This document shows, piece by piece, positions 4,084-35,578 of a stretch of DNA of 64,000 bases. Under the pieces are notes generated by a model. It was not told the origin of the DNA, did not search any database, and saw only the letters and a list, made by a program, of their open reading frames with translations. Made by a program: the position numbers and the translations under genes. This DNA comes from Boletus sp. NGJ (Eukaryota > Basidiomycota > Agaricomycetes > Boletales > Boletaceae): contig JAGTXK010000112.1 in assembly GCA_019096195.1 (NCBI GenBank), forward strand, positions 27,938-91,937, given 5' to 3'. Each line of letters opens with the position of its first letter. Position 1 is the first letter of the stretch.

Positions 4084-4100
4084 CACTGTGGGTAGTAGAA
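4084..4100 (+). repeat. Left CACTA terminus
   Basis: CACTGTGGGTAGTAGAA; it pairs with the complement of 35562-35578 at 16 of 17 positions (A/G transition). Confidence 0.78.
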
Positions 4101-5889
4101 TGAATGAAAAATACTATATGCAAGCACTGAACAATGAAAGTTCAATGTTGAAATGACTGAAACTTCTCACTACAGTATTCAGTGATTCTTACTGATCATT
4201 GAGTTTCCATTGTCGATCTGAAATTTAGTGTTGATATTTAATTCAGTAAATTTAGTGATCACTGAGTTCCCATTGTTGGTCTGGAATTCAGGCAGTTGTT
4301 GGGAAATCATTGAATTCTGAGTCTGTGGGTCCATACTATATGCTCAAAAAGATCTACAAACAACTATGACATGCATGCATGTGCAGATGTCCATTTAAGG
4401 TCTAACTTGACTCATCACCAGACTGTGAGTGTTCAGATTCATCAAGTGGCGCAAAGACAACTTGAGCGAGATTTGGTGTCTGATCAATAATGCCCCATTT
4501 CCTTTGTGTTTGTACACACCCAATGGCCACCTTGATATTTTATACATCCATTATTAATGGAGCTGCAAAATGAGAGAACAAGGTATTTGTAGAACTAGCA
4601 TCTTGCCCACTGGTTATAGCTGGCATGACGAGTGCAAGGAGGATAGTACTGTTGCGTAGTGCCTTCTATATCCACTCCAGATCACCTAATGTGCAAACTA
4701 ATACACACTCGAGTCGTCCATAATGAATAGATGTTATTTCTGACCCGTTGGCTAAGTTGTAGACAATCTCGTACTATGGGAACATCAGGATGGACACAAA
4801 CATGAGGAAAAGACATAGATACTATGCACTCGCACAAAGGAGTTGTCACGGAATGTCCCTTGGGATCTCTTTCATAGGCATTTGGCTGTGCATAGTTGGT
4901 CACCACCAGAGCGTAAGCACACCTTCCCCCATAGTGGCATCACTTGTGGCAAATTGGCAATAATTTGATCTTGTCTACCACCGATCACTTGGTGCAGGTA
5001 TACTGCAATTCATTGTCGTAGGTTGTTATCTGGCTGAAAATCAGCTGTGAAAGGACTGGCAAAAATATGGTGTGGATACTATGGGAGGTAAATGTGATGG
5101 TAGCAAGTGATTGATTCACTGGCAACAAGCATCATTTTCAATAGAAATCAATGAAGTCCATTTCTGAGGAGTGACAGGAATCATCACTGATTGCCATTTT
5201 TCGCTACTGGAGATCACTTGTATTTGCGCTAAGTTTTGATGTACATAACACTGTAAAACCCAAATTTCTCCACTGTTCTGAAGTGTGTTTTACAATGTTT
5301 TCTCACTCCTTCTCTGCCTGATTCTAGGGGCCATGTACACTAGCTTTGGGTGATTGTAGTAACACATTAGACTTGGCATAAATGTACATGGGATTATAAT
5401 AGTGTGCATGTGTGCAAATGACTGTGAAAGAATGCATCTAAACGAGCCAAGTCTATGTGTGAATGACTACAACACAACTGAAAACAAGCCAAATCTAGAG
5501 TGAGCCAGTGTGCCTGTTCTATGTTTCTGGTTGGGATTTTGAGCATGCTTGAGTCTGATGTTCCTTAATTTTAACCTAGGGTTAGTGAGATTGGTTAGTA
5601 TGGTTGTGTGCTATGTTGGTTTGTAAAGAAATTTCATGTTTCCTTTACCATGCTTAGCCTTCTGTTGCTTAGCTTGCTTGTTTGTTGTACCCTGACATAT
5701 ATTCAAGTTAGTAGCGTGTCCTCTAGGTGGTTAGTTCTCATACCTGACTGTCTTGAGGAGTCGTATCCGCATCAACTTTGACGTTCATGACTTGATCAAA
5801 GCATCTTGGGAGGGGTTGTGGCTGAGATCATGGCTGTAATTCTGATGATAGACGCTGCATTGGGTCATTAGTAGTTGGTTGCAGAATAT
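4101..5889. other. CACTA subterminal region and non-coding arm
   Basis: The part at 4140-4330 has several TTCAGTGAT / TGATCACTGA-type motifs in both orientations, and CTGAAATTTAG, which also occur at 35,265-35,530. Such repeated short motifs inside the ends are a CACTA trait, where they bind the TnpA-type protein. From 4331 to 5889 I recognise no gene; short open frames such as 4682-4906 have no family features. Confidence 0.55.
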
Positions 5890-6073
5890 AATACAAAGGT
5901 TGTTTAGACCTGATTAGTCTCTGACAATGCTGCTGGGGTAGTGGATGTGTCATTGGCTTTCTATTGTTGGTATTTGATAATGTTGTCACAGTAGATCAAA
6001 TCCAGCTCTTCATCTCCATCAGTATCCTGAAAGAGAATGGAGCCCACAGGGCTGCTCTTGATCATTTGCTAAC
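5890..6073 (-). pseudogene. Gene X-A, 3' fragment (cut off by the KDZ insertion)
   Basis: On the minus strand, starting right at the KDZ border, this reads MIKSSPVGSILFQDTDGDEE then LDLIYCDNI. It aligns with the X-B segment MLDSVAIGESLQSEEDSNEE then LDNILKVNT at 34,320-34,410. The 5' part of the same gene stops at the other border of the KDZ element (23,733). Joining the two across one copy of the target duplication gives DLKCNLKDVYQQMIKSSPVG, same length and frame as X-B. A TAG stop follows in KYQQ*KAND. The duplicated 8 bp (6066-6073) are included here. Confidence 0.85.
6066..6073 (+). repeat. Left 8-bp target site duplication of the KDZ element
   Basis: TTGCTAAC here against TTGCTGAT at 23725-23732: 6 of 8 identical, both differences being transitions. 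The choice of these eight bases is fixed by restoring the interrupted X-A reading frame. Confidence 0.75.
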
Positions 6074-6093
6074 ACATAATGCAGTCAAATTTG

Positions 6094-7990
6094 CCCATAG
6101 CATACGGTGAGCCTGCTTGCAAAATATCCAACATGTATGGATGATACTGTGACAGGCCTGAGATATATGAGATGCGTAAGACATGGCCAGGCCTGCCTAA
6201 CATGCATATATGTAGGATATGGAAGGGCCTGGAAATGGTAACTAGATGAAGGATTAATAGATATGAAACAGCCCCTAGTGGGGTGAGTAAGATTGAGGTC
6301 AATGCATACAATGGGACTGAGCAGGGTGGGGATGACCAAGTGCTGATATATATGACAGGACTGAGCAGTGTGAGCATGGCTGACCTTGATGTATATGATG
6401 AGACCAGGCAGGTTGGGAGTGACAGAGGGCTGATGGATATGACCATACTGAGCAGTATGAGGATGACCAACCTCAATGTATATAGTGGGACCAAGTAGGG
6501 TGGAGGTGACTGAGTGCTGATGTATACATCCACACTAAGTGGTGTGAGTGTCACGACCTCGATGGATATGATGAGACTGAGCAGGGCAGAGGTTACCAAG
6601 TACTGATGTAGATGACCACACTACGCAGGGTGAGGGTGACTAACCTCAATGGTTATGATCACACTGAGCAGGATGGAGGTGGCTGGCCTTGATGGTTATG
6701 GTGGGACCAAGCAGGGTGGAGGTGACCAAGTACCAACATATATGACCACACTGAGTGGTATGAGCATGACTGGCCTTGATGGATACGAGGGGACCAAGCA
6801 GGGTGGGGGTGACCAAGTGCCAATGGATATGACCACACTGAGCAGTGTGAGCATGACTGACCTTAATGGATATGGCGGGACTGAGCAGGATGGAGGTGGC
6901 TGACCTCAATGTATATGGTAGGACTGAGCAGGGCGGAGGTGACCAAGTGCCAATGCATACAACCACACTGAGCAGTGTGAGTGTCACTGACCTCAATGGA
7001 TACAATAAGACCAAGCAGGGCAGAGGTTGCCAAGTACCAATATAAACGACCACACTGAGCAGTGTGAGCATGACTTACCTTGATGGATACAGTGGGACTG
7101 AGCAGGGTGGAGGTGACCAAGTACTGACATATATGACCACACTGAGCAGTGTGAGCATGGCCAACCTCGATGCATACAATGGGACTGAGCAGGGCAGAGG
7201 TAACCAAGTACCGATGTAGACGAACCACACTGCGCAGGGTGAGGGTGACTGGCCTCAATGTATACGACCACACCAAGCAGGATGAAGGTGGCTGACATTG
7301 ATGGATACGACCACACCATGCAGTGTGAGCATGACTAACCTCGATGTATATGGTGGGACCGAGCAGGGTGGAGGTGACCAAGTGCCAATGTATATGACCA
7401 CACCAAGCGGTGTGAGTGTCACTAACCTCAATGGATATGACAAGACTGAGTAGGGCAGAGGTTACCAAGTACCAATGTAGATGACCACACCATGCTGGGT
7501 GAGAGTGACTGACCTCGATGGTTACGACCACACCAAGCAGGGTGGAGGTGACCAAGTACTGATGTATATGGCCACACTGAGCAATGTGAGCATGGCTGAC
7601 CTTGATGCATACGACAGGACCGAGCAGGGTGGGGGTGACCAAGTACCGATGGATATGACCACATTGAGCAGTGTGAGGGTGACCGGCCTCGATGCATACG
7701 ACCACACCATGCAGTGTGAGCATGACAGACCTTGATGTGTATGGTAGGACCAAGCAGGGCGGAGGTGACCAAGTGCTGATGTATATGATGGGATTAAGCA
7801 ATATGGGGGTGACTGACCTCAATACATATGGTGTGACCGAGAAGTGTGGATGTGACTTACCTTAATGCATTTGACCAGACCAAGCAGTGTAAGAGCGGCT
7901 TACCTCAATGGATATAGCAGGACCGAGCAGTGTAAGCATGACTTACCTTGATGCATACGATAGGATTGAGTGAGGCAAGTGTGACCTAGT
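6094..7990 (+). repeat. Left inverted end of the KDZ element: 43/44-bp tandem repeat array
   Basis: About forty head-to-tail units of 43-44 bp. Two unit types alternate irregularly: one with CACACTGAGCAGTGTG and one with GGGACCGAGCAGGGTGG followed by AGGTGACCAAGT. The first contains a near-perfect dyad (CACACTG / CAGTGTG around a 2-base centre). The outer 250 bp (6094-6340) is unique sequence and is repeated in inverted orientation at 23,460-23,703 with few differences. Open frames running through the array are by-products of the repeat period, not genes. Confidence 0.92.
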
Positions 7991-8217
7991 GCAATGGATA
8001 CAGAAGTGATCAAGCAAGGTGCATGTGATGCACCTTGAATATGGGGAGATGCTATGGCTAATGCATTGTTCTGTCCAAAATCTACTCTCCTCAGCGGCTA
8101 TGAATGATTCTCCAAATCAGGACTAACACTTGAAACATGAGTTTCTATGGGAACCTACCACTCTATATATTTTCCCAATTTCTACTTTCCCTGATCCTCT
8201 CAGATCTTCCTTTCACC

Positions 8218-9442
8218 ATGAGCCCCCCTGAAATTCCCAACAATTGGGCCATCTTCTATACCGATAAATTGGCTGCCTATATGGTTTCTAGATTTCAGAA
8301 TTCCCTGCTGCCTACCGATGACAACAATCAGCCAAAAGTTCCTCCTCTGTGCATTTCCATGCAGATAGTTTGCAAGGCAAACAGGATGGTCAGCATCATT
8401 TCAAAAGCATATCAAAACAAGGATATGGCTCTCACATTCGATGATGCCCCACTCATTCCTGCCCAGTGATGATCAGCAATGTTGACATCATTTGGCTTGG
8501 TGAACAAATCAAAAGGAGGGGACATTCAATGGTGCCATTGGATGCTGATGATTAGGAATATACTGCGCTCACTGAACCTGTGGTTGTTACCAATCATTCA
8601 GGCTATGTCTTACTTTGGTACTTACCCAGTGCAATCAGCCACCCTAACCAAGTAAGTATATTCCTGGGTTCCGCAACCTTCTCACCAATAGATCAATCAA
8701 GTGATACATCTGGGAACAGCTACCACTGCTGTCTGGGCCTCTTTCCTGTAGCGTGACCAGGAATACTCACTGGTGCATCTCAGAGGCAAACTTCCACCCT
8801 ACGGCAAAGCTGTAAGGGATGATTAACCTATCCCCTGCTTGGTTTCAACAGGGCTGAAATGTCGGTGTTTATTTGGCTTTTCCTCTTTTTCATTAACCTG
8901 ACATTGGTCAACAGAGGAAAAATGGACCACCCAAGGTCTTGGCACTGCTCAAGGCAACCAAAACCGATAGTGGAGCATGTGAATGGCTGCTGGCCATGAA
9001 AGAGCATTCAGCTCTTTTGGCAGCATTAGTTGCCATCCTGCATCCTGAAATGTATGATTCGGGTCAGGAGGTATTGGTTCAGCTTGGCAATCAGGTGGCC
9101 ACACAGGAGGACCTTGACATGAAGGATGTACTTCCTTTGTGGTCATTAGTGTATAATGTTATTTCCGTCATAGCCAACTGAGCTAGCTCATTTCACACTG
9201 ATATAAATGGAAGGCCCCAGTGGTTGGATCTTCTCATCTCAGTTGGTGACTACACCAGGTTAGATTTTTTAATCCCCACCATCAAGCATTAGCTTTGGTA
9301 TAATCCAGGGATAGTGATTGCATTCTTGGAGCAAATGCTTGAGCATGGAGTCAGTCAAGTTGCAGGGGAGCGGGGGGTGCTCTCATACTACATGTGGGAC
9401 AATGTCCATGAATACATGGATGTTTCTGCTGTAATTACATGA
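8218..9442 (+). pseudogene. TET/JBP-like 2OG-Fe(II) dioxygenase (predicted 5-methylcytosine oxidase), decayed
   Basis: The C-terminal core is clear: NVISVIAN, stop, SSFHTDINGRPQWLDLLIS, VGDYTRLDFLIPT, then YNPGIVIAFLEQMLEHGV, GERGVLSYYM and DNVHEY. The iron ligands are HTD (9194-9202) and the distal His in LEHGV (9344-9346). The 2-oxoglutarate Arg is the R of GERG (9371-9373). Upstream, LLKATKTDSGACEWL and AILHPEMYDSGQEVL match the usual fungal lead-in, and GYVLLWYLPSA lies near 8600. Stops at 9179-9181 (TGA for Arg) and 9290-9292 (TAG, probably CAG), and Trp for Arg at 9395-9397, are all C-to-T changes. The family oxidises 5mC to 5hmC. Introns and frameshifts between 8640 and 8930 are not resolved, and the assigned start is tentative. 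Confidence 0.85.
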
Positions 9443-9632
9443 AATATGAGATCTGGGGAGAACAGTAAAGAATAGGTAGGCAGTCAAAGTTGGACATAGA
9501 TTTGTTGCATTGGTCTGTGCTCAGTTAGTTATATTTGCTGAACTCAGCCAAGATATCACCAGATAAAGCTTGAATTACAAATTACAACCTTTAACTATGG
9601 ACAAGGAGTCTGGATCACAGGCCAAGCATGCA

Positions 9633-10160
9633 TCATCGACACTTCCAAAACAGTTTCCACAACCGAACCATATCTACCCGAGACTCTATTATTGTTGCCT
9701 CTGCCTTTGCAAGCTCGGTGATATTTTGCTGAAGCTTAGCCAAAATTCCAGTTGCCAGGGCATCCAGCCAAGCATTGTGAGCATTGTCCAATGGAGACTC
9801 ATCCATTGGCCAATAGTCCTTGTCATGAATTAGCTGATGACCATGATCCAAGCGATCCACATACCTGGAAGAAGGTTTCCACCCTTGCAAAGGAATCAGA
9901 AATGAAGAATTGAGATGCCTTGAGGTGATAGTCTGGAATGTTGGCCACCTACCATGGATGCTCAAATCCAAAGGTGGGAGCATCCACACTTGGCCACCAA
10001 CCTGGCAAGAGCTCTGGGGTTCGCTTCATGCCATCAAGGTCAATTTTGGAGGTGGCATGGATGATGTCCTGTTGGAGATCCTCTGGACTGGCGCTGACTT
10101 TGATGAATTAGACACAGGATGGGGTCAGTGGAGGTATGGTGTGCATGGGTGCATATAGGC
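9633..10160 (-). pseudogene. Open relic downstream of the KDZ transposase, possible C-terminal extension
   Basis: The minus strand gives RYVDRLDHGHQLI, PLDNAHNAWLDALATGI and AKLQQNITELAKAEATI, preceded in another frame by RTPELLPGWWPSVDAPTFGF. No domain is recognised. It follows the transposase on the same strand after about 600 bp without clear coding, so it could be a last exon or a separate small gene. The predicted C-terminal part is helical and charged. Confidence 0.4.
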
Positions 10161-10779
10161 CTAAGTAAAAGGCCAAGTGTAGCAAGTAATGAACTTAGTG
10201 AACCAGACAGAGTCACTATGTATTAGTACCTGTAGCAAGTAATGAACTACAGGATTGTCAACTAGGTGTAGAGAAAAGATAGATAGGGCCATACCTCAGT
10301 GAACCAGACAGAGTCACTGAGGGAAGGCAAACACAAAGCCAAAAAAACTAAGTACGTGCTTGGTAATCTACCACAGCCACATGACAATTGCTAATTACAA
10401 CACCAAGATGTTCTGCAAATCAATAAAATCAAAGGGCCGATTTGCGATGTGAAATGGAAAAAAACATACTGATTCCATGATCATATTATCATGCCAAGTT
10501 GCCAGCCACTGCTCGGCAGGAAGTCATGCAAGATGTGCCACAGCCACTTCAATCTGGCACTTCTGATACCACAGCATCATGTGGAGAGTGGTGACAGGTG
10601 TGTCGTCAGAAAATGTTTCCATGGCAGGATGATGAGGAATGGGGAATATGATGAAATGGAGGGTGTGAAGAGACTGTGGTTATATATTCCGCCCATGCAG
10701 ACCTCAGAATATCCTGCATTCATTAACAATGCATGACTGTTTCGGACAAGCTGTATATTTTTGTTATGATATGACGTCT
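10161..10779. other. No gene recognised
   Basis: A short imperfect direct repeat is visible: GTAGCAAGTAATGAACT occurs at about 10178 and again at about 10232, and GTGAACCAGACAGAGTCACT recurs about 110 bp apart. No coding signal seen. Confidence 0.5.
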
Positions 10780-12643
10780 ACTTATAAAAAGAGGCTACCA
10801 TCCAACATCTTCATAGAGTGTCTCTTGGCAGCTTTTCCACTCTGCCCAACACTGCTCCTGAAGTCAAGCATAGATGGCCTGCTGGCAGACAGCATAGCAT
10901 ATTTTTCCTTGGCCATCATTCTGCCAACTGTGTGCTCCATGCCCTTCCCATTCCCTTGATTTGTGGTTGAAGTAACCAATGGTCCATTCAAACTTGGCCA
11001 TCAGTAGCTCTGCCTCCTCTCCCCACCGATCTATTGTGGCTTTTGCATGCAACCAATATACCCAGTAGACTGTAGATATATATAATGTCAGCAGAAAGGT
11101 CTCATGAGAATGTGGAACTTACATTCAGACATTCAGTCGTTCATCTTGGTGTCCCCTGGTATATCCATCGACCAGAACCAGGCCAGGTTGTTGGTGCGAT
11201 GATTGCAGGAGTTGGGCTTGGTAACCACAGTGCTAACCTTAAGATCCTCGTCCTTCAACACCTGATATCTGGCCAACATGTCATTCTTGGCTGAAAGATT
11301 TATCATGGCAGATTAGCATTTCTGATATATGGCAACTTGCTGAGCAAGTAAGGCATCCACAGCATTCACCTTTCCCTAGGCTCTGGTGGTCTTCACATGG
11401 ATTGAAGCATGCCAAACATCAGTGTGGAACAATACTGCCTTGTCCGCTAACGCGAGCCAGATTTCATGTAAGGCATCATTTGCTTGGCCTGCACTAAGTT
11501 TGAGCTCCTGTTTAATCAGGTGGTGAGCATTGATCTCCATGCACTTGTCATGACCCAGGTTAGATGGCAATGGCAGCTTTGCCTGATCAGGTCATTTAGC
11601 TCCAAGATTATTGACCACATCTTCATCTTCAATATTAGTATCTTCATCAGATATGTCTGATTCCAAATTGTCATCATCCTCCAATCAAAGGAATGTGGAA
11701 GCTTCAGCGAGGAAGCATGAAATTTCGGCAGCCAGCTGATTGGCTCAGTAGGCAAGGGCTAGCTGTTGAAGTTCAGTGGTCTTGGAAGCCATCTGTCTCA
11801 TATCTCTGCAGAGTGATATCTGCACCTCCTCAATTTTCAAACCATTTGCAAGCCATGTTGCAGCTCTGCAGTGGGCTGCTAGTGTGTGAGTTATGCTCTC
11901 AAGCATTTCCCTCTCAACGGCCTATATGGTCAGTGCTGTACTCAGCAATGCATAAGCAACAGTCTGAGCTCTGTGGCGATATGCACCATGTCCCAACTCA
12001 TCTTTGTGTAGCTACACCTCAAATATATCCATTGCCGATGGATCGCTGATGTGTCTCTTCAAAGCCCTCTGCTCCTTGACCAGCCACTGCTGTCTTTGAA
12101 TATGGGCAACCCCCCCATCAAGGGCATGGAATATCGCCTTGCCAATGCAAATGATTTCTGCACAGCCTTGAGCTTCCTTGCCAGAGTTCTGGCTGGTATC
12201 AATGAGTACAGGCAGAATAAATGGGTAAACAACCACAGCGGAATATACACATTCTGATCATTTTGATAAAATTGAAATCTTTCATTTGGAAGTCAAGAAG
12301 CTCTTGCTGATGGAGGGGAGGTCATTCTTTGGGCAGACCCAGACACAATGTTCAAAGTAGACCATAGGTCTCAATGATCTCACCATTGACCCATCCTTCC
12401 CCAGGAATGAACAAGGGGGAGTACTGAGCAAAACATGAAGATTGATGTCCATGCACGTGCCACATCCCAATGCCAGGTACAATGGCCAGATTTGGCAGCA
12501 GCCAAATGAACCTGTTATCACTTAGCTGAGCTTGGAGCCTCTTTATATAAGAACAGTTGATGTCATAGAAACTTATGACACTCGAAATATTGTCCATGTT
12601 GTGGGTGAGGGCATTAACAAAAGAGTAGTCCATGTTCACCTGC

Positions 12644-12696
12644 CTGCATGGATCTAAGTGATTGGCATATTCATATTCTTCCTACATATTGCTTAC
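12644..12696 (-). other. 53-nt spliceosomal intron of the KDZ transposase
   Basis: On the minus strand the exon ends KGE plus AG, then gtaagc...atgcag, and the next exon opens G-CAG-GTG-AAC-ATG. Splicing gives DFQKGERQVNMDYSF, the expected family sequence. The second KDZ relic has an intron-like break at the same residue. Confidence 0.8.
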
Positions 12697-12842
12697 CTCT
12701 CCCCCTTCTGAAAGTCGACCACCGAGTGTGGTATGAAGCAGCCATGCTGAGCACATGCCAAAATGCTGATTCCAGTGGAGTCCAATTTGCCTTGGCTGGC
12801 ATTCGCCTGGTTCACAGCTCGGTGATTGTTGCAACTTGACCT

Positions 12843-12896
12843 CTATTGATGGATGTCAGCGATTATAGAAATAGTGTTTCTTCATTGTATGATTAC
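12843..12896 (-). other. 54-nt spliceosomal intron of the KDZ transposase
   Basis: On the minus strand CTG-GAG is followed by gtaatc...caatag and then AGG-TCA-AGT-TGC. This joins YHEYLKKIHCPLE to RSSCNNHRAVNQ in frame. Confidence 0.72.
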
Positions 12897-14233
12897 CTCC
12901 AGGGGGCAGTGTATCTTCTTCAGATACTCATGATAGTTTGGCTGAGTTACCATGAAGCTGAGGCCATCCATCAGCCAGATTTGATCATCAGGCTGCCTCT
13001 TCTGCATGTGTTCAGCCTTGAAGCTTCCATCCATGATAAGAGTTCAGCCATACTTCCAGCTGTAGGGATTTTGATCAGATAGTGCAGTGGTGAATGAATA
13101 TTGTCACCAAATCAGAAAGCTTGTCAATGGAGACATGCACATTTAGGGAAGATGTTGAAAGTTATCCTTCAGAGCTTGCTGTAATAGTTCATTCTGGATG
13201 TTCCACACTCCAAATTATCTTGGATGAAGTCATCCAGCAGGGTGAAGGTAAATGCAGTCCTTGGAATTTGTAGTGTTGCAGGGTAAAGCTTGCATCGCAA
13301 AAATTGAAGATATTCTAGGTCAGAATCAGAGCATGTGCAGTAGTTGATGGTCATGAAATGAATTCCCAGTCACATCAACCATCATCAGATAATTTGACCT
13401 GCTTGGTGGATAAAGATGTGGCAGAATGTTATTTTAGTTGATGTCTTCCTAGGCCTCATCATCCACGGATGCTGGATAGTCAGATATATGCAGATGTTTC
13501 TGGCTCCTGCTTGGACATGGCCCACTATCATGACCGAGATGGAGCTCAAAGCCAGTCTGTTGCAGCGTGTTTCAAAATCATCCAAGGCTTAGGGTTGCTT
13601 TACAAAGCTTACCAAGATCAGAGATGAATCGTCAAAGAATGCCCCAGTCCACTACTGAATGCAATAAAAAGGATGCCTCTTATGTCGGTCCCTACAGCAC
13701 CCAGTGCATAATAGTGGCTGACCAAAACAGTCCGAACACTGATAGATACCATCCTGATGGCATATACAACATTCTCGGGGATCAGTGGGAGCTTCCATGT
13801 CCAACACAGCTTGCAGAAATTCTTCCTTGTGAGTGATCCATTCCTGGAGATAATCATTTGAGGTCTAATGTTTGTGTGGATTAGTGCATTCACCAAAATC
13901 AAGGATGGGTACATTTTTAGGGGGCAATCAGATTGGCCAAATGTCATCTAATTCTCCATCAGCAGCATCTGGCCTTCACCAGATATCATCAGAATAGCAA
14001 GTTTAAATGTGACAAAGAACATACATGCTGGCACCGAAAGTAAACTGAGAGTCAGATGGTCCAGGCTTGCTTGGGGTGGACTGGACAGATTGGGATGTTG
14101 TTGTGGAAGTTGGATCCTTGATAGCATCCAATCTGACAAGAGTCATCTTAGGCCCCCTTGTGATATTTTTCATTATCCAAGTGGCATGTGTAACTCTTCC
14201 AGGGTTAATCTTTCGTTTGTAGGCATTAGGCAT

Positions 14234-14787
14234 TCTTAGGATGATGGAAGACAGTACAGCAGCATGAAAAACACAGATACAACTCACTTTACATTGCAAG
14301 CCAAAACACAAATCAGTAATGCATACGTACACCCGTGTGGTTTGTTGGACGCTGTGGTGTCTCATCTTGGCTAGTCAGAACCAAGTCCATGGATATTAGA
14401 ACTCTGATTTCTCTGGCAGCACTTCTGTGATTCAGTCACCTGGCTATGCCCCATATATAGATATATTGCAATCATGATTACTTCAGCTAATTATATGGAT
14501 TGAGGAATATGTCTGCCTAGAGGGATTGCCGGTATCACATAACTAAATTTGCTGCTTGGCGCCTGGCCCTATGCCATATGATTTATTTTATATGACTTCT
14601 CTTGGTGACATTTCAGGCACTTATGGCACCAAGCCCTGGCATATCTTACTTTTCTCGGGAGTATTGCAGTTATTGTGTAACCTTGGCTACTCGGTCTCTG
14701 GCAATCATGACATGGAGACATGGTTGTTGTAACACTATCCAATGAAAAATGAATGCATTGTGCTGCACTTTGAGTCTACCCTCTACT
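14234..14787. other. Divergent promoter interval between KDZ transposase and the next gene
   Basis: No gene recognised. It lies between two divergent ATGs (14233 on -, 14788 on +), so it probably held both promoters. TATATATAG-type A/T runs occur near 14,450. Confidence 0.4.
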
Positions 14788-17700
14788 ATGTCTGACAACA
14801 AGATGGAATACACCATGACTGACTATCAAGGAACTGACCATGATGGCTTACAAGATGACATGGAAGACAAGAAACCCCATGCCAAGGATGTCTCAGCTGA
14901 AAATGAGGCAGGGCCATCTCAGAATCTAATGCGACATGTGAACTCTGGCATATCTGACAACTCACTGCACATTCTCCAGGAGCAATGGCCAGCATGGAAG
15001 GCTGCCAGAGGTAAAAAACAACAAACTATCTGGAGGGCTCTGATACTTCGGATCCAGTGTCTGAGGGAGAACCTTACCCTGGAGGATGCAGTGTGGGAGC
15101 ATCAAGTTCAGGTGAGAAATGAAATGTTGTTTCTATCATGAAGATTTGATTTCAAATTTTTCAAAAGGTATATGAGAAATGAATGCAAAAACAAGGGTGG
15201 ATGGGGAAAAAAAAGGATGGCATCACCCTCGGCAAGACATGGACAGCTTGGTCTATGATTCGGGAAGCAATGGAAAGAAGAAATCAAGGAGATGATCAAG
15301 GAACAGTTTGGCGCAGAGCCGGGATCCTCAGCGATGTTTCAGCATTATCAGACAATGCTCTCAGAAGTCATGAATGGTCTCTCTCCTGATGAGATCCAGA
15401 ATGCTGAGTCGACTGCCGCCACATGGAATTCACAGGGTGCCATGACCAAAGTGAAGGCATGGCAAGTGTTTCTGATTGAATCATATGCTACATGCTAAAA
15501 GTCATACAGGTTTACAACAAGGGGTGTAGCATCAGCCATGAGGCAGTTCTCCCAGGATATGTGGAAAAGAGGAGGGACCCAGATGGTCGTATTGAGTGGG
15601 TTTAAGGATAAGAAAGGGGAGGTGTTCTCAAACCAGTGGGTGGACTCTCAGTGCTCCAAAATTCCCATAGTCTGACCGACATAAGCTTTGACTTCAACTC
15701 GGCAATTGAACATGGCCCATGTTTTCAAGGCTTTCGATGCAATCTAGGGGGACTGGGATAGGTATCTCAGCAGCTGCTTTGCTCCTGCAGATGACAAAGC
15801 AGAGGCAGATGACGAAAATGAGCATTTGGGCCAGGCTGATGTGAAAAGGCAGAAAAAGCCGAGGCAGAAACAAGGAGATGATGCAATAAACATGATAACT
15901 TGGTCAGATGATTCAATCTGAATCCCAGAGTTCACTGGGCGAAGCCAAGCTGATATGCAAAACATGGTCCAAGGCTTTCTCACCTCACACTACCATACAT
16001 TGACCTGGTATCTAACTGTAATGCACAACATTAACTGTTTCCAGGCTTGATATGCAAAAATCTGAAGGTCTCAGCCCCTTTCAAGAAGCTTGCCGAGTTC
16101 CAGGATGCCTGTTTCAGTCTAAACATCTTCCAGATGGCTTTATCTTTTCCAATGATTCTAGTCATCTAAAGGCTGATGATGCCAAACAGTTTCTGGAGTT
16201 TATTCAAAAATGACAACATGACTGGTCAGATGATGTCTTTCAATTCCAATGCTGGTTGGACATGAAGAACAAGCTTCAGGAGCCTGCAGAGAGCGATGAT
16301 GAAGGTTTTGCTGAGGTAGAGCGATCGAAGAGATCTTGGCAAGAAAGGTCAAGGGCAAAGAGGCTCTCTGGGGCTCAGACCCAGGAACAGGATAATGCTG
16401 GCCCGGATAAATCAACCATGGAGAAAGAAGATTCAGTTTGACAGGATTTGAGGAGCCCATCCATCCCCTACAGTGAGTGGTCTGTGAGTGAACAAGAAGT
16501 TGGGGACCTTCCTCGGAAAATGGTGTCATTCAAGGTGGGTGCTTCAACATGCAGTATGGCATCAAAAGTGCACTTAGGTGCTTTATTTCGCTAATTTAGT
16601 GAAAGGATTGACTGCAAGAAAACCCCAGATAGAGAGTGGTGGTGGTCAAAGGGGACCAAAGTGAGAGTGGATGGGTGACTGAGGCCAATCAATATCCAGA
16701 CCTCAGTAAATGGTAAGTGGTTAATGCCCTCAGATATCACATTGTTGATGCAGCGGATGTGTGCCTTGTAGTGGGGCGACCACCAACCAAGAATTCAAAG
16801 AATGTGTCTCACCATCTGCAAGAACCATTCAAAGTTGATGAAACAATCACCAATGATACCCATTAATTATCACTAGACGATACCTATCTATCGCTACCCC
16901 TACTACACTTTCGCACTACCTATAGACGATACACTCGCCTACCCCAACCAAACTCCCCCCTCACCTTACCTCGCATACACCTAGAGTAGTCACTCATCAT
17001 GTCCTCCCCCATACGATACGCCATACAACCGCACACACCCACGTATGCTTTCATTAGCAGTACCCCGTCGTATCTACTATACTACGACACCAAACAACCC
17101 CTATGGCTAAACCCCAGCCTCACGGCCACAAGAAAGGCCCGCACACCTATAAACTATGCCTCCCCCGTGGCTCTACCTGATGCAGCGCTCAGTAGCCACA
17201 TCACGTGACACAATGCCATACGAGGACAATAACCCCTTTGTCACGTACATGCTTGTTACACACACAACACCTGTAGATAGTATCTGATGCAGAGCTCGGT
17301 ACACTACACAAGTACTAGTCAGAAGCTCGCCTCCAGATCCCCAACTCCCCCACTCGCCCCGATCCCTGGCTTATGCCATGGATCATACCCAACGCTATCC
17401 CACGATACCGTCCCCAAGTACTAATCAAGCCCACACTAGATTAACCCCTAGACATAGACAAGATCTGATCTGTTCCCCGACATGATCTCATCTCGATACC
17501 CAATCCACCGATCACCCTATGCAACACTTCACGCATTACCTTTTCATTTCTCCTTTCATCTCACCTATGCATCCCTATTTAAGACTCCCTTAGATATATC
17601 ACATGTAGCCATGCCTAGAGCGTTCTGGACTGCATTTCACTTACATGTGTATACCACGCACATCTCATTCCACCATTTCTCTCTTTTGCCATTGGACACT

Positions 17701-18087
17701 AACATTTCCTCGTTCCTGTGATGTCATACCCAGTACCCTATGACATCATAGCATAGCATGGTCCGTGCGCCACTATTGGTAGTATATAAGTAGCCGGTAG
17801 AGTACCATGTTTCGTTCCTAGCCTTGAAATTGCCTTTCTCTCTGTCACATATTGCCTTGGTTGGCAACGCTTCAGATATTAGGTTTAGATTTCTTTCTTC
17901 TGTCTGTTGCAAGTTCCTTTCAGTTGGACTGCCAAGAAATGCCAAAAAGGCAGATCAGGTAACTTGGGAGAATCCTACTGGACATATTGGGCACAGGAAT
18001 GAGATACCAGCATCAAAGGAACATTCGTTGCTGAAACCAACTTTGAAGAGAACTGCCCTGGGCAACGATGATGACCAAGTTATGTGA
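14788..18087 (+). pseudogene. Agaricomycete-specific transposon cargo gene (gene 3), split by a solo LTR
   Basis: It opens MSDNKMEYTMTDYQG and continues LQEQWPAWKAARGKKQQTIW. An intron follows after HQVQ, then WTAWSMIREAMERR, a frameshift, and FGAEPGSSAMFQHYQTML, LSPDEIQNAESTAATWNSQG. Later parts include DFNSAIEHG, MQNMVQGFLTSHYHTL and FQFQCWLDMKNKLQEPAESD. Proteins with this pattern (a helical block ending in a Thr/Ala-x-x-WN motif) recur across Agaricomycetes, often near transposons, with no known function. Near the end ADVCLVVGRPPTKN...EPFKV is interrupted by an LTR at 16,839 and resumes GLPRNAKKADQ at 17,928 in frame. Several stops and frameshifts make it a relic. The 3' end is uncertain. 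Confidence 0.65.
16839..17922. repeat. Solo LTR, 1084 bp, CpG-retaining
   Basis: It starts TGAAACAATC and ends CCTTTCA, so the termini are the inverted pair TGAAA/TTTCA. It is flanked by GTTGA (16834-16838) and GTTGG (17923-17927), a 5-bp duplication with one transition. Removing it joins EPFKV to GLPRNAKKADQ in the same frame. A TATA-type TAGTATATAAGTAG lies near 17,781, fitting a promoter near the LTR 3' end. It keeps far more CpGs than its surroundings (11 in 17041-17280). Frames inside, such as 16999-17208, are not genes. Confidence 0.72.
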
Positions 18088-18525
18088 CTTGATTTCTCTC
18101 CAGATGGACTTGGCAAATCCATCCACAATACAGCTTTAGCACCATGAAAAAAGAAGTTAAAGTCAGCTTTAAAGACGCTGAATCCATCACCCCCTGTTGG
18201 TCATGCTGGAACCAAGGGTTGTAAAAAACTAAGGTTCCAAGCTCACACCCCAGTTGTATCACAAGGGACAGAAACCTGAACCCAAGATGCGCTAATGTTG
18301 GCCCTTTTTGAATCATGGCTGATTCTAGATTTTTATCCATAGGCACAACTCCACATCAATCAGGAAGAGCATGCAAGGCTCTACTACCCCCCGATGCAGA
18401 AGCATCAACTCTGGGACCTCAGCTGATCAAAAAATAGCTGTATATGGCTCTTTACTCCTTGCATTATCTTGTAAATAGTTCAGACAATATTTGGAAAATA
18501 AGTTCAAAATACAATGCTAAGAACA

Positions 18526-20180
18526 CTACTGAGGGGCCGAGCATTTCCTAGATGTTGCCCCTGCATCTTCCTCCTCATCCTCACCCAAAACCTGCTCTTC
18601 AGTAACTATCTCCTCTACAGCCATGCTCTCTATATCCATGGCATTGTCGTCCTCAGCTTGAATGGTGGTGATAGTCAGCATGAATACTGTCGATCTGGGT
18701 GTGGATTCCCCAGAAATGCCAGCCACCTTGGGATCGAAGATTGATGGAAGCTGTGGAAATAGTTGGGGAGGCCCCCAACTTCCCTCTAAGATTGTGCCTA
18801 GGCCACCACCCCAAGTGACAGTCATGGCAACCCCAGTGTGAGGCTGCAGTGCTTGACGGGGAAGGGGGGCGATTGGCCAAAGGGTTGAGCCTTTGGTTGA
18901 AGAAGGGAGGGGGGGAGCATTGGTAATATCGACATCTGCTTCCAGGGCTTGCTGGCTGAGAGATGGAGTGGGGGAGGAAGGGGAGTCAAGCACACCTGGC
19001 TCAGTAACAGCATTGAAGAATGCAGAGAATGGTGCCCCATTAATGGCTTCGTCACTGGCCTGCTGATGAATTTGTTGGAATGGGAATCACATTGTTGTGG
19101 ATGAAGGACAAACTGTATCATCTGCAGTCCAACTCTGGCAGTCTCTGAGCTTGGTGATGACCTGGCCGAATGTTTCCAAGGAGTCGACCATTGTGTTGAC
19201 CTGATTCTCAAGGCATGAGTGACTAGCCTGCAGTTGCTGGTGTGCTTGAAGCAGACTCTTGTAGTCGCCGGTGTCACTAGGCTCAATGTGGCCAGACCAA
19301 GCATTGCCTGATGTTCCAGTGGTGGACAGTCCAGGTGCTTGCATGGCTGGTACCAATTTCTTCACCCTGGGGATCATCACACCTTCAAGGACTATGTAAT
19401 CAACGTTAGTGGGCAGAATATTGCAAGTGTGCACGACTTACCTTGGGCTGGCTTCGATCATTTGGCATTCTTTTGTGGGGGGCCAACCTTGATGGTCAGT
19501 GCTGGCTTACAGGCTGAGGGTGGTCCACAGTATGGCATGCAAATGGCTGGTAATGGCATGGGGGTAGGTGGTGGTGATGGGGCATCATATTGAACCTTTG
19601 ACCAAGGTGGGCAAGCGCAAGACTCACTGCGTTCCCGCGGTTTCTTTGTTCTCTCCAAGGATGGGGATTGGTGGGTAAGGGAACTCAACTATTGGTGCAG
19701 TCTTGCCAGGGAGCAGCATACCTTCCACTGGTGGCACTGGGTGCAAGCATGGCCAGGATTTGGGGTGCACCTGTCACTGCATCATTTGCAGGCAGCACAT
19801 ACTTGCTCAAAATCCTCTATCTCTTCGGCAGGTGGTGGTGGCCGTGACCTGCCCCACGAGTGTCCATGAGATTTCCCTTTCCCTGACGTGTCTAACAGCT
19901 TGACACATTGCCTTGAATGACCTCGCTCTTTAGAATTGGTTTCCAGCAGGTTGATATGCCAGGCCTTGCCCTTGCCTTTGTCCATACTTTCTGGCACCAT
20001 CTGCACTTTGTTGATGTCAATGTCATCGCCATCCTGCATTGTTGTGATGGCCCAATCCTCAGTGTTGAGCAGCTGTCCTGATGGCCGAGTGACCTTTGTG
20101 GAAGATGTTGGGACCTTGAGCCATGGGTGATCCGGGTGACCAGAAATATCATTCTCAGGATCTTGCTCCAGTCTGGCCAT
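18526..20180 (-). pseudogene. Cys-cluster protein gene (gene 4) of the KDZ element, Agaricomycete-specific
   Basis: From MARLEQDPENDISG at 20180 the minus strand runs through a Lys/Gly/Ser-rich stretch (DKGKGKAWH) to CAACK, stop, CSDRCTPNPGHACTQCHQ and WKVCCSLARL. This is a C-x2-C spaced cluster reminiscent of fungal Zn(II)Cys6-like regions. Then come a coiled-coil segment LLQAHQQLQASHSCLENQVN, a Pro/Ser-rich region, and an acidic tail EDDNAMDIES...GEDEEEDA. The stop after CAACK is TGA where Arg is expected, and VCC replaces VRC; both are C-to-T changes at CpG. Introns are likely near 19,440-19,640 and 19,000-19,090. DNA binding is possible but unproven. Confidence 0.6.
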
Positions 20181-20923
20181 CGGCTGTTTTGATACTGTGA
20201 CATCTCAATGTCATAGATGATGGCCAGGAGAGGTACCTTCTCAGCACTGCCTGCCACAGCTCGAATTGTGTCCTAGCATGCATGTTAGTTAGGCTGTGAT
20301 GGTATGAGTGCTATGATCATGCACCAAGTGGCCCATGATCTTGGCAATGGCCTAGTGCCATGCTGCCATCCAGGCAGCAGCTCCCTCAGTTGTCCCAAGG
20401 ACTTTCATTTTGAGGATGTGTTGGATGGCGGCTGTGGCATTGTTGTGATGGCTTGGATGGTGGAAGACATGGTAGGGAATGGTGATGCAGAATGTGATGG
20501 AAAGAGGTGTGTGGGACATGGCAAGTTTTGCTTCATGAATGCTGAACGGCATTCACTGTTGTTTGGTTCTTCACCATTGTGGCTCGGCAATTCTGGCTAA
20601 TGCGCTATACTCCATATTTCCCATGTAACCACCCACTCCACTGCTGACCACACATGTCACCATTCCCAATCCAACTTCATCCCATTCCTCCCATTCCACT
20701 TTTCCACCATATCTCAGCACAGACTCGCAATGTAAAAGCAAGTTTGGTTTACAATTCCAGGTGAGTGCAACGTTCCTATTCTGAAAAAAATTTCCATTTG
20801 AAAAAAATCGAATTCATATGCCACCTCAGTCACCATCAGTCTTGGCCTACAGCAAATCAGACTCCATTGGTAAGTGATTGGCCTTGGAATTGATCAGTAA
20901 TTGACCACATTTTAGATCTAGAG

Positions 20924-21720
20924 ATGGCAGATGCATCAGATGTGTTGTGGTGCATTCCCACCCCACCTCCATTCCAATCCTATCTGCCATCACTAATGAT
21001 GACCGACTTTAATGATTTCTCTGATGCCTGCTTACCAACCCCATCCCCCTTTGCAATGCCTGACATCCAGCTAGACATGTTCACAAGTGTCTGCATTCCA
21101 ACTCCTCCTCCATTTCTATCAAACGACATCCACATCCCAATGCCACCAAGATTCATTCCAATGGCCAAAGACCCTCTCCCCTCCTCCATTCCACAAGAGA
21201 TGGCACAGGCTGGTATTCCTCAGCAGTCGCCTTGCCGAAAAGGCAAGACACATCTACCCACTCGAAAGCATTGATTGGATGAGCCAGAGTGGAATGTTTG
21301 CATATTGCTTGGTTGTGATGCATGACAAAAGCATTGGGCAGAGGCCATGCAGATCATCAATCAACACTGTGAGTTCAATCATTATCTCAGCTCCATGATA
21401 TATATCTCATTACCTTGTCCGAATCTAGTGGCTGTGAGAAATGATGCCAAGCGTGATCAGTCACCAAACAGGATGTCAACATAGATGGAATTCCAGATTT
21501 CGGTGAGTGCACAATTAATGTGTAAATGGCTCATTCTGACGATATTGACAGTGTTTGAAAATGCTGTCATGGTTGATCACATGGTGGAGCAGGTATCCAA
21601 TGTTCGGCATAAACCAATTGAACATCTGCTTGCTTAGGTGGCGATGGAAATGGCCACAGAGTCTTTCATTTGGGCCTCATGGTGAAGAATGGAATTGTTG
21701 CAGACCCAGGTAAGGCTGTT
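20924..21720 (+). pseudogene. Pro-rich orphan gene (gene 5) of the KDZ element
   Basis: It opens MADASDVLWCIPTPPPF and carries three copies of a [I/L]PTP[P/S]PF motif (residues about 11-17, 37-43 and 58-64) within 75 residues, then PMPPRFIPMAKDPLPSS. After a stop at 21274 the other frames continue SGMFAYCLVVMHDKSIGQ and, further on, ENAVMVDHMVEQVSNVRHKP. The break pattern suggests introns or decay. No family is recognised. The motif spacing suggests repeated short linear binding sites. It lies just inside the right inverted end. Confidence 0.45.
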
Positions 21721-21899
21721 GGATATGCTGGAATATATTCAAGAGCAGTGTGTGTAAGAATAGAATAGACATATACACTAAATCATAGCATGTAGATATG
21801 GTGGTCATACAATGAGGAACATGTGGAAGCAGTTCAAGGCCACAACTGAGCTCAGTCTATTAGCACATTCATGCATGACCTTTGGTCTGCTATGCAGCG

Positions 21900-23703
21900 G
21901 TCGGTAATTCCCACTATTCTTAGTCCCACCGTATGTATTCAGGTAAGTACTCATCCTGCTCAGCCCCACCATATACATCAAGGTCAGTCACACTCACACT
22001 GCTCAGTGTGGTCATATATGTTGGTACCGGTCACCTCTACCCTGCTTGGTGTGGTCATATGCATTGGGGTCAGTCACCCTCATACTGCTCAGTGTGGTCA
22101 TATACATTAGTGCTTGGAAATTTCTACCCTGCTCAGTATGGTCGTATCAATCAAGGCTGGTTATGCTCACACCGCTTGGTGTGGTCGTATGCATCAGTAC
22201 TTGATCACCTCCACCCCACTTGGTCCCACCATATTCATTGAGGTCAGCCACCTCCATTCTGCTCAGTGTGGTCATATCCATCAGCACTTGATCACCCCCA
22301 CCCTGCTCGGTCCCCTTGTACACATCAAGGTCGGTGATGCTCACACTGCTTGGTGTTATTGTATACATTGATACTTGGTCACCTCCACCCTGCTCGGTTC
22401 CACCATATTCATCAAGGTTAGTCATCCTCACACTGCTCAGTGTAGTCTTATCCATTGAGATTAGCCACCTCCACCCTGCTTGGGGTGGTCATATCCATCA
22501 GTACTTGGTCACCCCCACCCTGCTTGGTCCCTTTATACATGTCGAGGTCAGTCACCTCACACCACTCAATGTGGTCATATACATCAATGCTTGACAATCT
22601 CTGCCCTGCTTGGTGTGGTCGTATCCATTAAGGCCGGCCATGCTCACACTGCTCAGTGTGGTCATATCCATCAGTACTTGGTCACCCACACCCTGCTTGG
22701 TCCTGTTGTATATATTGAGATCAGCCATGCTTACACTACTCAGTGTGGTTGTATCCATCAAGGTCAGCCACCCCCACCCTGCTCAGTCCCATCATACACA
22801 TCGAGGTTGGCCATGCTCATACTGCTCAGTGTGATCCTATATGTCGGTACCTGGTCACCTCCACCCTGCTTGGTCCCACCATAACCATTGAGGTCAGCCA
22901 CCTCCACCCTGCTCAGTCCCACCATATCCATTGAGGTCAGTCATACTCACACTGCTTGGTGTGGTCGTATCCATCAGCACTTGGTCACCCCCACCCTGCT
23001 TGGTCCTCTCGTATCCATCAAGGCCAGTCATGCTCATACCACTCAGTGTGGTCATATATGTTGGTACTTGGTCACCTCCACCCTGCTTGGTCCCACCATA
23101 ACCATCAAGGCCAGCCACCTCCATCCTGCTCAGTGTGGTCATAACCATCGAGGTCAGTCACCCTCACCCTACGCAGTGTGGTCATCTACATCAGTACTTG
23201 GTAACCTCTGCCCTGCTCAGTCTCATCATATCCATCGAGGTTGTGACACTCACACCACTTAGTGTGGATGTATACATCAGCACTCGGTCACCTCCGCCCT
23301 ACTTGGTCCCACCATATATATTGAGGTTGGTCATCCTCATACTGCTCGGTGTGGTCATATCCATCAGCCCTCTGTCACTCCCAACCTGCCCAGTCTCATC
23401 ATATACATCGAGGTCAGCCATGCTCACACTGCTCAGTCCTGTCATATATATTGGCACTTGGTCATCCCCACCCTGCTCAGTCCCATTGTATGCATTGACC
23501 TCAATCTTACTCACCCCACTAGGGGCTGTTTCATATCTATTAATCCTTCATCTAGTTACCCTTTCCAGGCCCTTCCATATCCTACATATATGCATGTTAG
23601 GCGGACCTGGCCGTGTCTTACGCATCTCATATATCTCAGGCCTGTCATGGTATCATTCGTACCTGTTGGGTGTTTTGCAAGCAGGCTCACCATATGCTAT
23701 GGG
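21900..23703 (-). repeat. Right inverted end of the KDZ element: 43/44-bp tandem repeat array
   Basis: Inverted counterpart of 6094-7990. The same two unit types occur in reverse complement (CACACTGCTCAGTGTG and CCACCCTGCTTGGTCCC). The outer unique part 23,460-23,703 matches the complement of 6094-6340 closely; for example GGTAACTAGATGAAGGATTA at 6237-6256 is present unchanged as its complement at about 23,541-23,560. Translations through the array are artefacts. Confidence 0.92.
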
Positions 23704-23724
23704 TGAATGTCACCACATGGGCTC

Positions 23725-23732
23725 TTGCTGAT
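23725..23732 (+). repeat. Right 8-bp target site duplication of the KDZ element
   Basis: TTGCTGAT, partner of 6066-6073. On the minus strand it ends the X-A codons TAT-CAG-CAA just before the element. Confidence 0.75.
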
Positions 23733-25904
23733 ATACATCCTTGAGGTTGCACTTGAGATCCTCCATGATAAGTTCAATCGCAATATAAGGAATGAGCATG
23801 TAGGAAAGAAAATCAGAAAAAGAGAGAGGGTGGAACACAGCTGTTGGTGTTCTGGTTTGGAGATAGATGCCAAATAGCATATGCATGATGATTGCATTTC
23901 CCTTCATTCTATAGCTTTAAAATATGAATAGACAATGACCTGAACATTGAGACAAAACTCACTATCCTGTTTCTGCCCATAGAGCTATGTTCAATGCCAG
24001 ATTGATCTCACCTGCTCTGAGTGATGAAAAAGTCTCGATAGATAGCCCATTGGCTGTGAGCGATTTCTTAAACACGTTCCAAATGAATGATTTTTCCAAA
24101 TAGACCTTGTTGAATATCAACTGATTCAGTTCTTCAGACAACACATGCATCCGCTTTGGAATAAGTCAAAAGTTGATCTCAGAGATTGGCCATTTCTATT
24201 TTGCTGCTGTTTCGAGTGCCAGATCCTTCAGCTTCTCTTTGCAAACCAGGTTGCATATGTCCATGGCCATTCATGACACTGGGATAGTGAATTGCCCACT
24301 TTGGCAGCAAAGATTGCAATAATGCTTGATGAGGGAGGCTAGGTAAGGCAGAATTATTGATAGCATGTCTTCCTTACACTCTGGACACCTCTGAAGCCAA
24401 TCCCCATTTGGCAACAAGACACCAGCATTAGAATCACTGTCTGAGGTGTAAGAGAAATCCATGGCATTTCTCTTGAGTGTGGTGGACCCTGCCTCAAAAT
24501 CCTTGTTCTCCTCACTGGACCAGAATCACTTTGCCGTAGTATCCTTGGTTCCATCCACACTGTTGCTGGACTTCAGCAGCTTCAACTTTGGAACCCTGAT
24601 CTTGATTACATAGTTTCCTCTCGTCTGAGTCAGCCTTTGTGCTCCTCACCAGGGTTAGACACCTTCATCAGCACAGTCCCACCTTCACTCATCTTGATGG
24701 ACATAGATGGTCCCAACTTAGACTGCTTGCTGATGACAGGGGGCTCATTGGACTCCTTGTTGGAGCTGCCCTTGTTCGCCTTTGCCTTTCCACCAGACTT
24801 GGACTGCTTGCTGATGATGGGGGGCTCATCGGAGCTACCCTTGTTTGCCTTGTTGGACTTGGATGCCTTTGCTGTTACACTCCCACTTCCACTTGACTTG
24901 CCAGACTTGGATGCTCCTAGCTTAGACAGCTTGGTGATGATAGAATCATTGGACTCCTCATTAAAGCGATTCTGATTTACCTTGTTGGACTGAGATACCT
25001 TCTTTTGTGCTACCATCTCATTCTCAGACTCATTCTCATGCTCTGAGTTGCCCGAGTTAAAGTGGACCAAGTCTGAATCTTCTTCATCCCAACTCCCACT
25101 CTTCTCACTTAATTCAGACTTGGATTCGCTCCTCTAAGTGCATTTTGTTGGCTGGAACGTTGGTGCTAGCTTCGCTTCTTCTTCCTCTTCTGAGTTCCCC
25201 CCATCTATTTCCTTGCGTTTTTTTGCCAGAAATACAATCTATATATGAGAAAACAGTATCATCAATAATATTAGCTTTACGAATCATGATACATACCTTG
25301 ACATCCTATGTGAGTTGGTGCTCTTTTGCAGCCCAATTGCATAGGTATTGTGCCATAATGTTATGAATGGCCCAGCTGCCTTCATACTGTTTTAAAACGG
25401 GGCTCTGCAACCATGCCTGTGGAAATGAGTGAGTAAAAGGCACATATATGTGCTGGATAAGAACGACCTACCCTGGCTATGACCTTCTTGACCAACATTT
25501 TGTCTGGCTGTTGGCTTAGAGTGTGGATGACATTGAGGTACCTGACGACAAGTGTGCAAATACAATGCTAACATTACATAAGCATATATAATTGCAATCA
25601 CTGAGTGAATGCACTTACTGTGACAAAGTTATATTATGCCTTTGACAATTTCATCATGTTCATCACATTGTATGAATCTGGACCAGCACATCCAGGGTGG
25701 CCCCTAGGCTTCAGAATCATTCCAGCCTTCATGGGCTCCTGTAGATGATCATGTCTTTTCTTGTGGTGAGCACATTCTTTCTCTGTAAAATATAAGCAAG
25801 CCATCAAGATATTGAATTGATTACTCACCTTTATCAAAGTCATTCTAAAGACTAGTCAGAGTTGCTTCAAGTTGATCAAGACAGCTGGTCTTGGTCTTTG
25901 CCAT
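23733..25904 (-). pseudogene. Gene X-A, 5' part: CACTA companion gene interrupted by the KDZ element
   Basis: The ATG at 25904 gives MAKTKTSCLDQLEATLTSL, a coiled-coil-like start similar to X-B (MARHNKTSKINSVAAKISRL). An intron of about 45 nt precedes EKECAHHKKRHDHLQEPMKA and LKPRGHPGCAGPDSYNVMNM, matching X-B RRPKGTPSRSPPNGYNIQEA. A Lys/Ser/Asn/Glu-rich low-complexity region lies at 24,630-25,070 (repeats of SKQSK and KANKGSS). The C-terminal block PLSFSDFLSYMLIPYIAIEL, IMEDLKCNLKDVYQQ runs to the KDZ border. It faces Tnp2-A head to head about 100 bp away. By analogy with plant CACTA elements it may be a TnpA-like DNA-binding accessory; this is inference only. Confidence 0.7.
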
Positions 25905-26009
25905 TGCAAAGGTGAGAGTGTGTAGGAGTTGGAGATAAAGTCAATGTCCTATCATGATATTGTTTAATCGTGTGGACTTGGAGGACTGAGTCACAATTGG
26001 GAATTTTCT

Positions 26010-29000: not shown

Positions 29001-29460
29001 TCTCACTCTACCAAAGGACACATACTGGAAAAGTCTCAGTGACACCACACTTGTTCTCACACTCATTGTTCCATGGAATACCAGGGGCAAATCAGCATCT
29101 GATGCAAATGTGTATATGACATTGTGCCTAGCAAGTGTTATGATGGATGTGCAGAGTGTTCAGGCAGTAGTTGGGCTTGTCAAGACTCGAAATAAGTGGA
29201 GGATCATAGATTGAACACCAGGGATGGTATCAGCTCAGTTTGCAGATGGCGAAATGATAGTCAATGACAATGACAATGACAAGGTATTGTAATATTCAAT
29301 GGATACTGGTAGAGCCACATGGACAGACTATGTAGTAGCTCACACTTGGCCCATAGAGCAACATCAAAAAACAGTGGCAGCAATGAACAATAGTGATAAC
29401 CTTGTATCACTGCATGGAAGTGGACATTAACATAGTGGCCATTTCATTGTATTTACTTTG
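26010..29460 (+). pseudogene. Tnp2-family (CACTA) transposase A, decayed
   Basis: The core at 27,005-27,709 carries FKICDVFDSAHYQCL (Tnp2 Asp-bearing block), ITLSLCSDSYLLHGQY, NLPPNCRTHLNNLLCVTIIP, GFHQPKDIGSFLSPLDNELA, FDLHAYSLFKPGDIIAIKKF and KIKGHNGIYPCQLCKIKGVR. It continues with VPWEWFHLLLENVIPNLVNL, WTGQFKGLN, then LTIHGLLHLVQGIQDCRPVW and FMEWYCGIL (family: ME-R-Y-C-G). These are the standard blocks of fungal Tnp2 proteins. In-frame stops include those after APTKAEKE and TWKE. It starts about 100 bp from the divergent gene X-A. The 5' exons (26,010-26,970) are Ser/Asp-rich and poorly resolved. Confidence 0.88.
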
Positions 29461-29490
29461 ATCAGTGAAAGCATTACCTTTGAAGAGTGG

Positions 29491-29506
29491 CTTTACTTCC
29501 CACAGT
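29491..29506 (+). repeat. Candidate internal CACTA-type terminus of unit A
   Basis: CTTTACTTCCCACAGTG resembles the right terminus TTCTACTACCCATAGTG (about 13 of 17; most differences C/T). It sits right at the A/B junction. It may be chance or coding. Confidence 0.3.
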
Positions 29507-29540
29507 GGGATCTGTGTATGGATTCTATGTGAGCTCTGAG

Positions 29541-32000: not shown

Positions 32001-32113
32001 AACTTGGAGAAATTGTAGCTGTGATGACTAAGATTGCCAAAAATAGATAATAATGTGATCTAACCATCAGCACAAGCAAACTTGATAGCAGCCTCTCTTT
32101 ACTCCTATTAATC

Positions 32114-35561: not shown

Positions 35562-35578
35562 TTCTACTACCCATAGTG
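35562..35578 (-). repeat. Right CACTA terminus
   Basis: TTCTACTACCCATAGTG; on the minus strand CACTATGGGTAGTAGAA, a canonical CACTA start. The flanking GCCA (35579-35582) equals the bases left of 4084. Confidence 0.8.

Follow-up and report, generated by a model that had tools for sequence, protein, structure and literature searches.

Features of the locus

The window analysed is a 64,000-nucleotide stretch of contig JAGTXK010000112.1 of Boletus sp. NGJ (GCA_019096195.1), and all positions given are counted from its first nucleotide. Positions 4084-35578 are occupied by two related, CACTA/EnSpm-like elements, designated A and B, each with a Tnp2 transposase gene and an RTC4-like gene (X-A and X-B, respectively), and by an element of the KDZ superfamily located within X-A. 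The features assigned to elements A and B are as follows.

4084..35578: element B, of CACTA/EnSpm-like type and split by element A; inverted ends alike at 23 of 28 positions, flanks GCCA/GCCA
4483..5069, minus strand: C-terminal part of Tnp2-B, on the far side of element A; similar to Tnp2-A at 28636-28806 (E 6e-7) and 28984-29211 (E 6e-13)
29682..31489, minus strand: Tnp2-B, N-terminal and middle part; blastn and homology to Tnp2-A, PF02992 at 30151-30870 (6.9e-4, below cut-off)
34066..34536, plus strand: last exon of X-B, the RTC4-like gene carried by element B; PF14474 4.4e-9
5077..29507: element A, CACTA/EnSpm-like; ends TACTATGGGAGGTAAA / CACTGTGGGAAGTAAA, alike at 13 of 16 positions, flanks GGA/GGA
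26652..29211, plus strand: Tnp2 transposase gene of element A; PF02992 6.6e-16 at 26927-27706, matches to the parts of Tnp2-B
23733..25855, minus strand: X-A, 5' part of the RTC4-like gene of element A (start approximate); RTC4 PF14474 4.6e-6, collinear with X-B
5958..6065, minus strand: X-A, 3' end, on the far side of the KDZ element; gap-free match to the X-B tail, RTC4 profile gain of 7.5 bits when joined

Elsewhere in the window, the remains of a Copia-type retrotransposon (integrase core, SH3-like, GAG-pre-integrase, and copia gag domains) were found at 936-3530 on the minus strand, and a weak match to a Plavaka transposase (PF18759 0.004, below cut-off) at 38722-38949 on the minus strand. 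An inverted DNA pair (54189-54481 and 57326-57622) was 88% identical over about 300 bp, and further, shorter inverted matches were present between approximately 46 and 58 kb. At the right edge lies a Peptidase A4 family gene (63188-63826, plus strand; PF01828 1.8e-24), which is likely an ordinary host gene.

Elements A and B

The blocks forming elements A and B were collinear, diverged, and inverted relative to each other, and in both the RTC4-like gene (X-A on the minus strand, X-B on the plus strand) was divergent to the Tnp2 gene. A Tnp2-type transposase was recognised in element A by PF02992; the corresponding match in element B was below the cut-off, yet the gene was homologous to that of element A. 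The matches of Tnp2-A reached 29211, and the strong matches of Tnp2-B stopped at 29682 and resumed at 5069-4483. Tnp2-B is therefore interrupted by a segment that carries X-A, the KDZ element, and Tnp2-A, its two parts having been found on either side. The joint itself could not be proven by alignment. At the DNA level a local match (15 of 18 nucleotides) spanned it and was compatible with the joint, but three joins were equal at 22 of 38 nucleotides, a score found in 0.4% of random 38-mers, and at the protein level the predicted join ranked 15th of 75.

The ends of element A were taken as the top-scoring inverted 16-mer pair with equal flanking triplets in the zones where the segment must end. 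The sole other pair with a score of at least 10 scored exactly 10, and in 300 random pairs of zones a score of 13 was obtained once and a score of 12 seven times. Scanning the window with the end motif of element A returned 4084 as the best further plus-strand match (14/16) and 35578 (13/16), tied with 42814, as the best further minus-strand match. Positions 4084 and 35578 bracket all parts of element B, and their mutual agreement was the highest among pairs in the zones searched. The ends of element A read TAC../..GTG with a 3-bp flanking repeat, and those of element B read CAC../..GTG with a 4-bp flanking repeat, or CCA plus one extra base. With the guests removed, coordinate arithmetic gave lengths of 6,772 bp for element A and 7,061 bp for element B.

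The first-pass annotation, made from the DNA letters alone, had presented X-A as a gene split by the KDZ element. The split is real, but the interrupted gene is probably not a host gene. Because X-A and X-B are divergent to Tnp2 genes in collinear elements with CACTA-like ends, X-A very probably belongs to another transposon as an accessory gene. The contrary reading, in which X-A and X-B belong to the host, A and B are the diverged copies of an inverted segmental duplication of host DNA, and Tnp2 is present by chance, appears improbable: common inverted end motifs with flanking repeats bracket exactly these blocks, and the Tnp2-B gene is broken at the ends of element A. That reading draws on the fact that no third copy is known and that neither A nor B shows a sign of ever having moved. 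Searches with the Tnp2-A and X-B proteins returned no relatives in viral contigs; the collections searched comprise viruses and prokaryotes and are uninformative on fungi.

The KDZ element

The features assigned to the KDZ element are listed below.

6074..23724 with an 8-bp duplication, or 6073-23724 with a 7-bp duplication: KDZ element, based on the inverted arms, the KDZ and CxC2 domains, and the join supported by X-B
6066..6073, plus strand: proposed target duplication, left copy TTGCTAAC, alike with the right copy at 6 of 8 positions
23725..23732, plus strand: proposed target duplication, right copy TTGCTGAT, the only copy that keeps X-A open
6094..7849, plus strand: left arm of the inverted pair, composed of arrayed ~43-bp units; blastn, tandem repeats
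21911..23703, minus strand: right arm of the inverted pair, composed of arrayed ~43-bp units; blastn, tandem repeats
8897..9439, plus strand: decayed TET/JBP dioxygenase gene with two in-frame stops; matches to the CcTet structure
12355..12681, minus strand: KDZ transposase domain exon; PF18758 2.4e-14
13172..13369, minus strand: exon of the KDZ transposase gene that encodes the CxC2 cysteine cluster; PF18803 7e-18

The long inverted ends and the KDZ transposase described in the first-pass annotation were both recovered. A repeat search aligned 6079-7030 with 22767-23718 (952 nt, 92%), and between 6094-7030 and 22767-23703 there was identity in 863 of 937 columns. The mismatches of the latter pair included 66 transitions, 41 of them in a CpG-type context, and 8 transversions. 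Using blastn, the inverted match was widened to 6094-7849 and 21911-23703 (81% over 1805 columns), so that the arms comprise approximately 1.8 kb of inverted DNA built of ~43-bp repeats; the tandem-repeat periods were 43, 86-87, 130, 173-174, 217, 261, and 303, with a single odd row of 24. Two patterns derived from the arms gave 0 exact matches, one against viral contigs and the other against genome contigs, in collections of viruses and prokaryotes that are uninformative on fungi.

The transposase domain together with its associated CxC cluster, both on the minus strand, places the element in the KDZ superfamily. For the TET remnant, the sole structure matches of the first piece (E 0.67-0.71) and of the third piece (E 0.0014-0.0015) were the TET/JBP entries 8jkk and 7vpn (CcTet), and the middle piece had no match in the search of solved structures. 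In the Pfam search, Tet_JBP scored 0.18, under the cut-off, on the first piece and was absent for the second and third. The CcTet-like remnant, together with CxC2, would suggest a mushroom-forming fungus as the source. The element had been called complete, a description that holds at most for its ends, given the two stops in the TET frame. A second CxC2 cluster at 39669-39935 on the minus strand (PF18803 4.8e-32) represents another KDZ gene remnant; it was without DNA similarity to the KDZ element among the self-comparison matches listed.

CpG was strongly depleted across the window, with observed/expected ratios of 0.12-0.44 in the eleven segments measured. Depletion of this strength resembles that of long-methylated, transposon-rich DNA. 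It was considered as a mark of the TET-bearing element and rejected, the KDZ segments having ratios of 0.24-0.27 (n=3) vs 0.12-0.44 for the others (n=8).

Splitting of X-A and the proposed target duplication

The flanks of the KDZ element are two parts of a single gene. When X-A was aligned with X-B over the joint, the join proposed in the first-pass annotation was gap-free and scored 73, and the runner-up among 100 joins scored 41. In the 22-residue tail, 9 residues were identical and the score was equalled in 1 of 100,000 shuffles, or in 54 of 100,000 when the last four residues (EELD) were left out; across the joint, 53 of 111 nucleotides were identical. X-A and X-B also corresponded upstream of the joint, in three stretches that scored 94, 58, and 53 (each equalled in 0 of 300 shuffles) and in two further stretches that scored 44 (1/300) and 41 (17/300). 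The RTC4 profile provided a test of the join that is independent of X-B: the joined peptide scored 34.7 bits, the peptide reading into the element 27.2 bits, and the right flank cut short 26.2 bits. The join over one repeat copy held with the right copy, which gives DVYQQMIK; the left copy gives a stop.

The evidence thus supports a KDZ element that splits X-A and has its borders just beyond the strong inverted match. The outermost 20 bp beyond that match agreed at 10 of 20 positions, compared with 92% inside, which puts the proposed extreme ends beyond the inverted repeats. In the first-pass annotation the borders were placed well, 20 bp outside the match, as candidate positions of the exact ends.

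An 8-bp duplication had also been regarded as provable by reading frame. This was overstated: the X-A frame fixes the net length alone (17,659 bp for the element and a single repeat copy) and not the length of the repeat. On the diagonal that keeps the frame, the two copies agreed at 5/5, 5/6, 6/7, 6/8, and 7/9 positions for increasing lengths, and in 5.7% of random trials the best 8-mer within 21 offsets of the fixed diagonal agreed at 6 or more positions. A duplication of 8 bp is therefore consistent with the data, short of proof, and lengths of 5 and 7 bp fit as well. With 7 bp, the strong inverted match is 21 bp away from either end, which makes the ends symmetric, and the element has 5'-CA at one end and TC, rather than TG, at the other. 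Most likely, the target duplication begins with TTGCT and is 7 or 8 bp long.

When the frame was ignored, 17 pairs of 8-mers on six diagonals near the ends were alike at 6 or 7 positions. Among them is the repeat GCTCTTG (6054-6060 and 23721-23727), perfect over 7 bp but on another diagonal, on which the X-A frame is broken. If this repeat were the duplication, the element would span 6061-23720, and X-A would have had, or later gained, an 8-nt deletion relative to X-B. Identity of 7/7 is better than 6/8, and 7 bp is the length given for TET-bearing Kyakuja elements in PMC12730594. Such an origin is nevertheless judged very unlikely, since the frame is lost, the RTC4 profile falls to 26.8 bits, below even the unjoined peptide, the ends are asymmetric (the strong inverted match is 33 bp away on one side and 17 bp on the other), and perfect 7-mers were shared in 186 of 1500 random pairs of equally sized zones. 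That the element instead ends at the strong inverted match (6094 and ~23704), with the approximately 20 bp beyond each side being flank or filler, is extremely doubtful, because about 40 added bases would disrupt the X-A frame and 10/20 slightly exceeds chance (P 0.024), even though the drop from 92% at this point is abrupt (P 9e-7 under 92% identity).

Probable nested insertion of three transposons

The locus is, with high likelihood, a nest of three decayed cut-and-paste DNA transposons, with the KDZ element inside element A and element A inside element B. On the basis of the nesting, element B would have come first, the related element A would then have inserted into its Tnp2 gene, and the TET-bearing KDZ element would subsequently have entered X-A near the 3' end with a short target duplication. 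The ends and the inverted subterminal arrays of ~43-bp units are the presumed sites of action of the KDZ transposase, and the TET/JBP enzyme presumably once oxidised methylcytosine on the element. Points against the nest are the imperfect duplication (6/8), the outer 20 bp that are not inverted, the difference between the flanks of B (4 bp) and A (3 bp), and the unproven joint of Tnp2-B across A; moreover, the searches, in collections of viruses and prokaryotes, yielded no further copy of any of the three elements.

The nest is a well-preserved, ordinary instance of transposons nesting in one another. It would place three transposition events in sequence, and it means that the KDZ border was argued from a gene which is itself cargo of a transposon. 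Any copy of element A that lacks the KDZ element would represent the empty site, so the KDZ border should be easy to test.

Comparison with known systems

CACTA/EnSpm elements have a Tnp2 transposase, CAC..GTG ends, and a 3-bp duplication. Elements A and B resemble them in the Tnp2 (Transposase_21) protein, in the CAC..GTG-type ends, and, for element A, in the 3-bp flanking repeat; they differ in that the second gene is RTC4-like, the flanks of B fit 4 bp, and one end of A reads TAC. In plant CACTA elements, TnpA is the DNA-binding partner of the transposase.

The statement that KDZ elements make 8-bp duplications applies to part of the superfamily. According to Kojima 2025 (PMC12730594), Zisupton and one TET-bearing Dileera make 8-bp duplications, whereas TET-bearing Kyakuja of Laccaria have 7-bp duplications, CA..TG ends, and no TIRs. 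In PMC12810828, Cryptococcus KDZ1 is described with 8-bp duplications and KDZ2/KDZ3 with 4-8 bp; these elements have TIRs of 139-241 bp and a CxC1 domain. For Pleurotus, PMC7641404 reports that a CxC2 region precedes all intact KDZ elements. Passages of PMC9297572 and PMC8290104 contained no end sequences for comparison.

Like the TET-bearing Kyakuja of Agaricomycotina, the present element combines a KDZ transposase with a TET/JBP gene, whose remnant is nearest to CcTet among solved structures, and a 7-bp duplication with 5'-CA is possible. Unlike Kyakuja, it has inverted arms, and the 7-bp fit (6/7) fails to give CA..TG ends. Canonical Kyakuja ends were rejected, since among 56 CA/TG pairs near the KDZ ends the best duplication agreed at 4/7. 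As two Kyakuja features are lacking, the element was classified as KDZ alone. It shares inverted repeats with Zisupton and Cryptococcus KDZ1-KDZ3, and an 8-bp duplication like theirs would fit at 6/8 at the proposed ends; it differs from the Cryptococcus elements in its longer arms, in CxC2 scoring best, and in the extreme 20 bp, which are not inverted.

A literature search found no paper linking an RTC4-like gene to a transposon or transposase, and no description of either design (a KDZ element with inverted ~43-bp arrays, or a CACTA-like element with an RTC4-like gene). It is tentatively suggested that the TET-bearing KDZ element, with non-inverted extreme ends and ~1.8 kb of inverted ~43-bp arrays, might be a structural link between the TIR-less Kyakuja and the TIR-bearing Zisupton, and that elements A and B might exemplify a CACTA-like element of fungi in which an RTC4-like protein is encoded by the second gene and perhaps serves as the DNA-binding partner of the transposase, as TnpA does in plants. 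If the pairing of Tnp2 and RTC4-like genes recurs, it would mean that Tnp2 transposases in fungi carry RTC4-like genes along with them.
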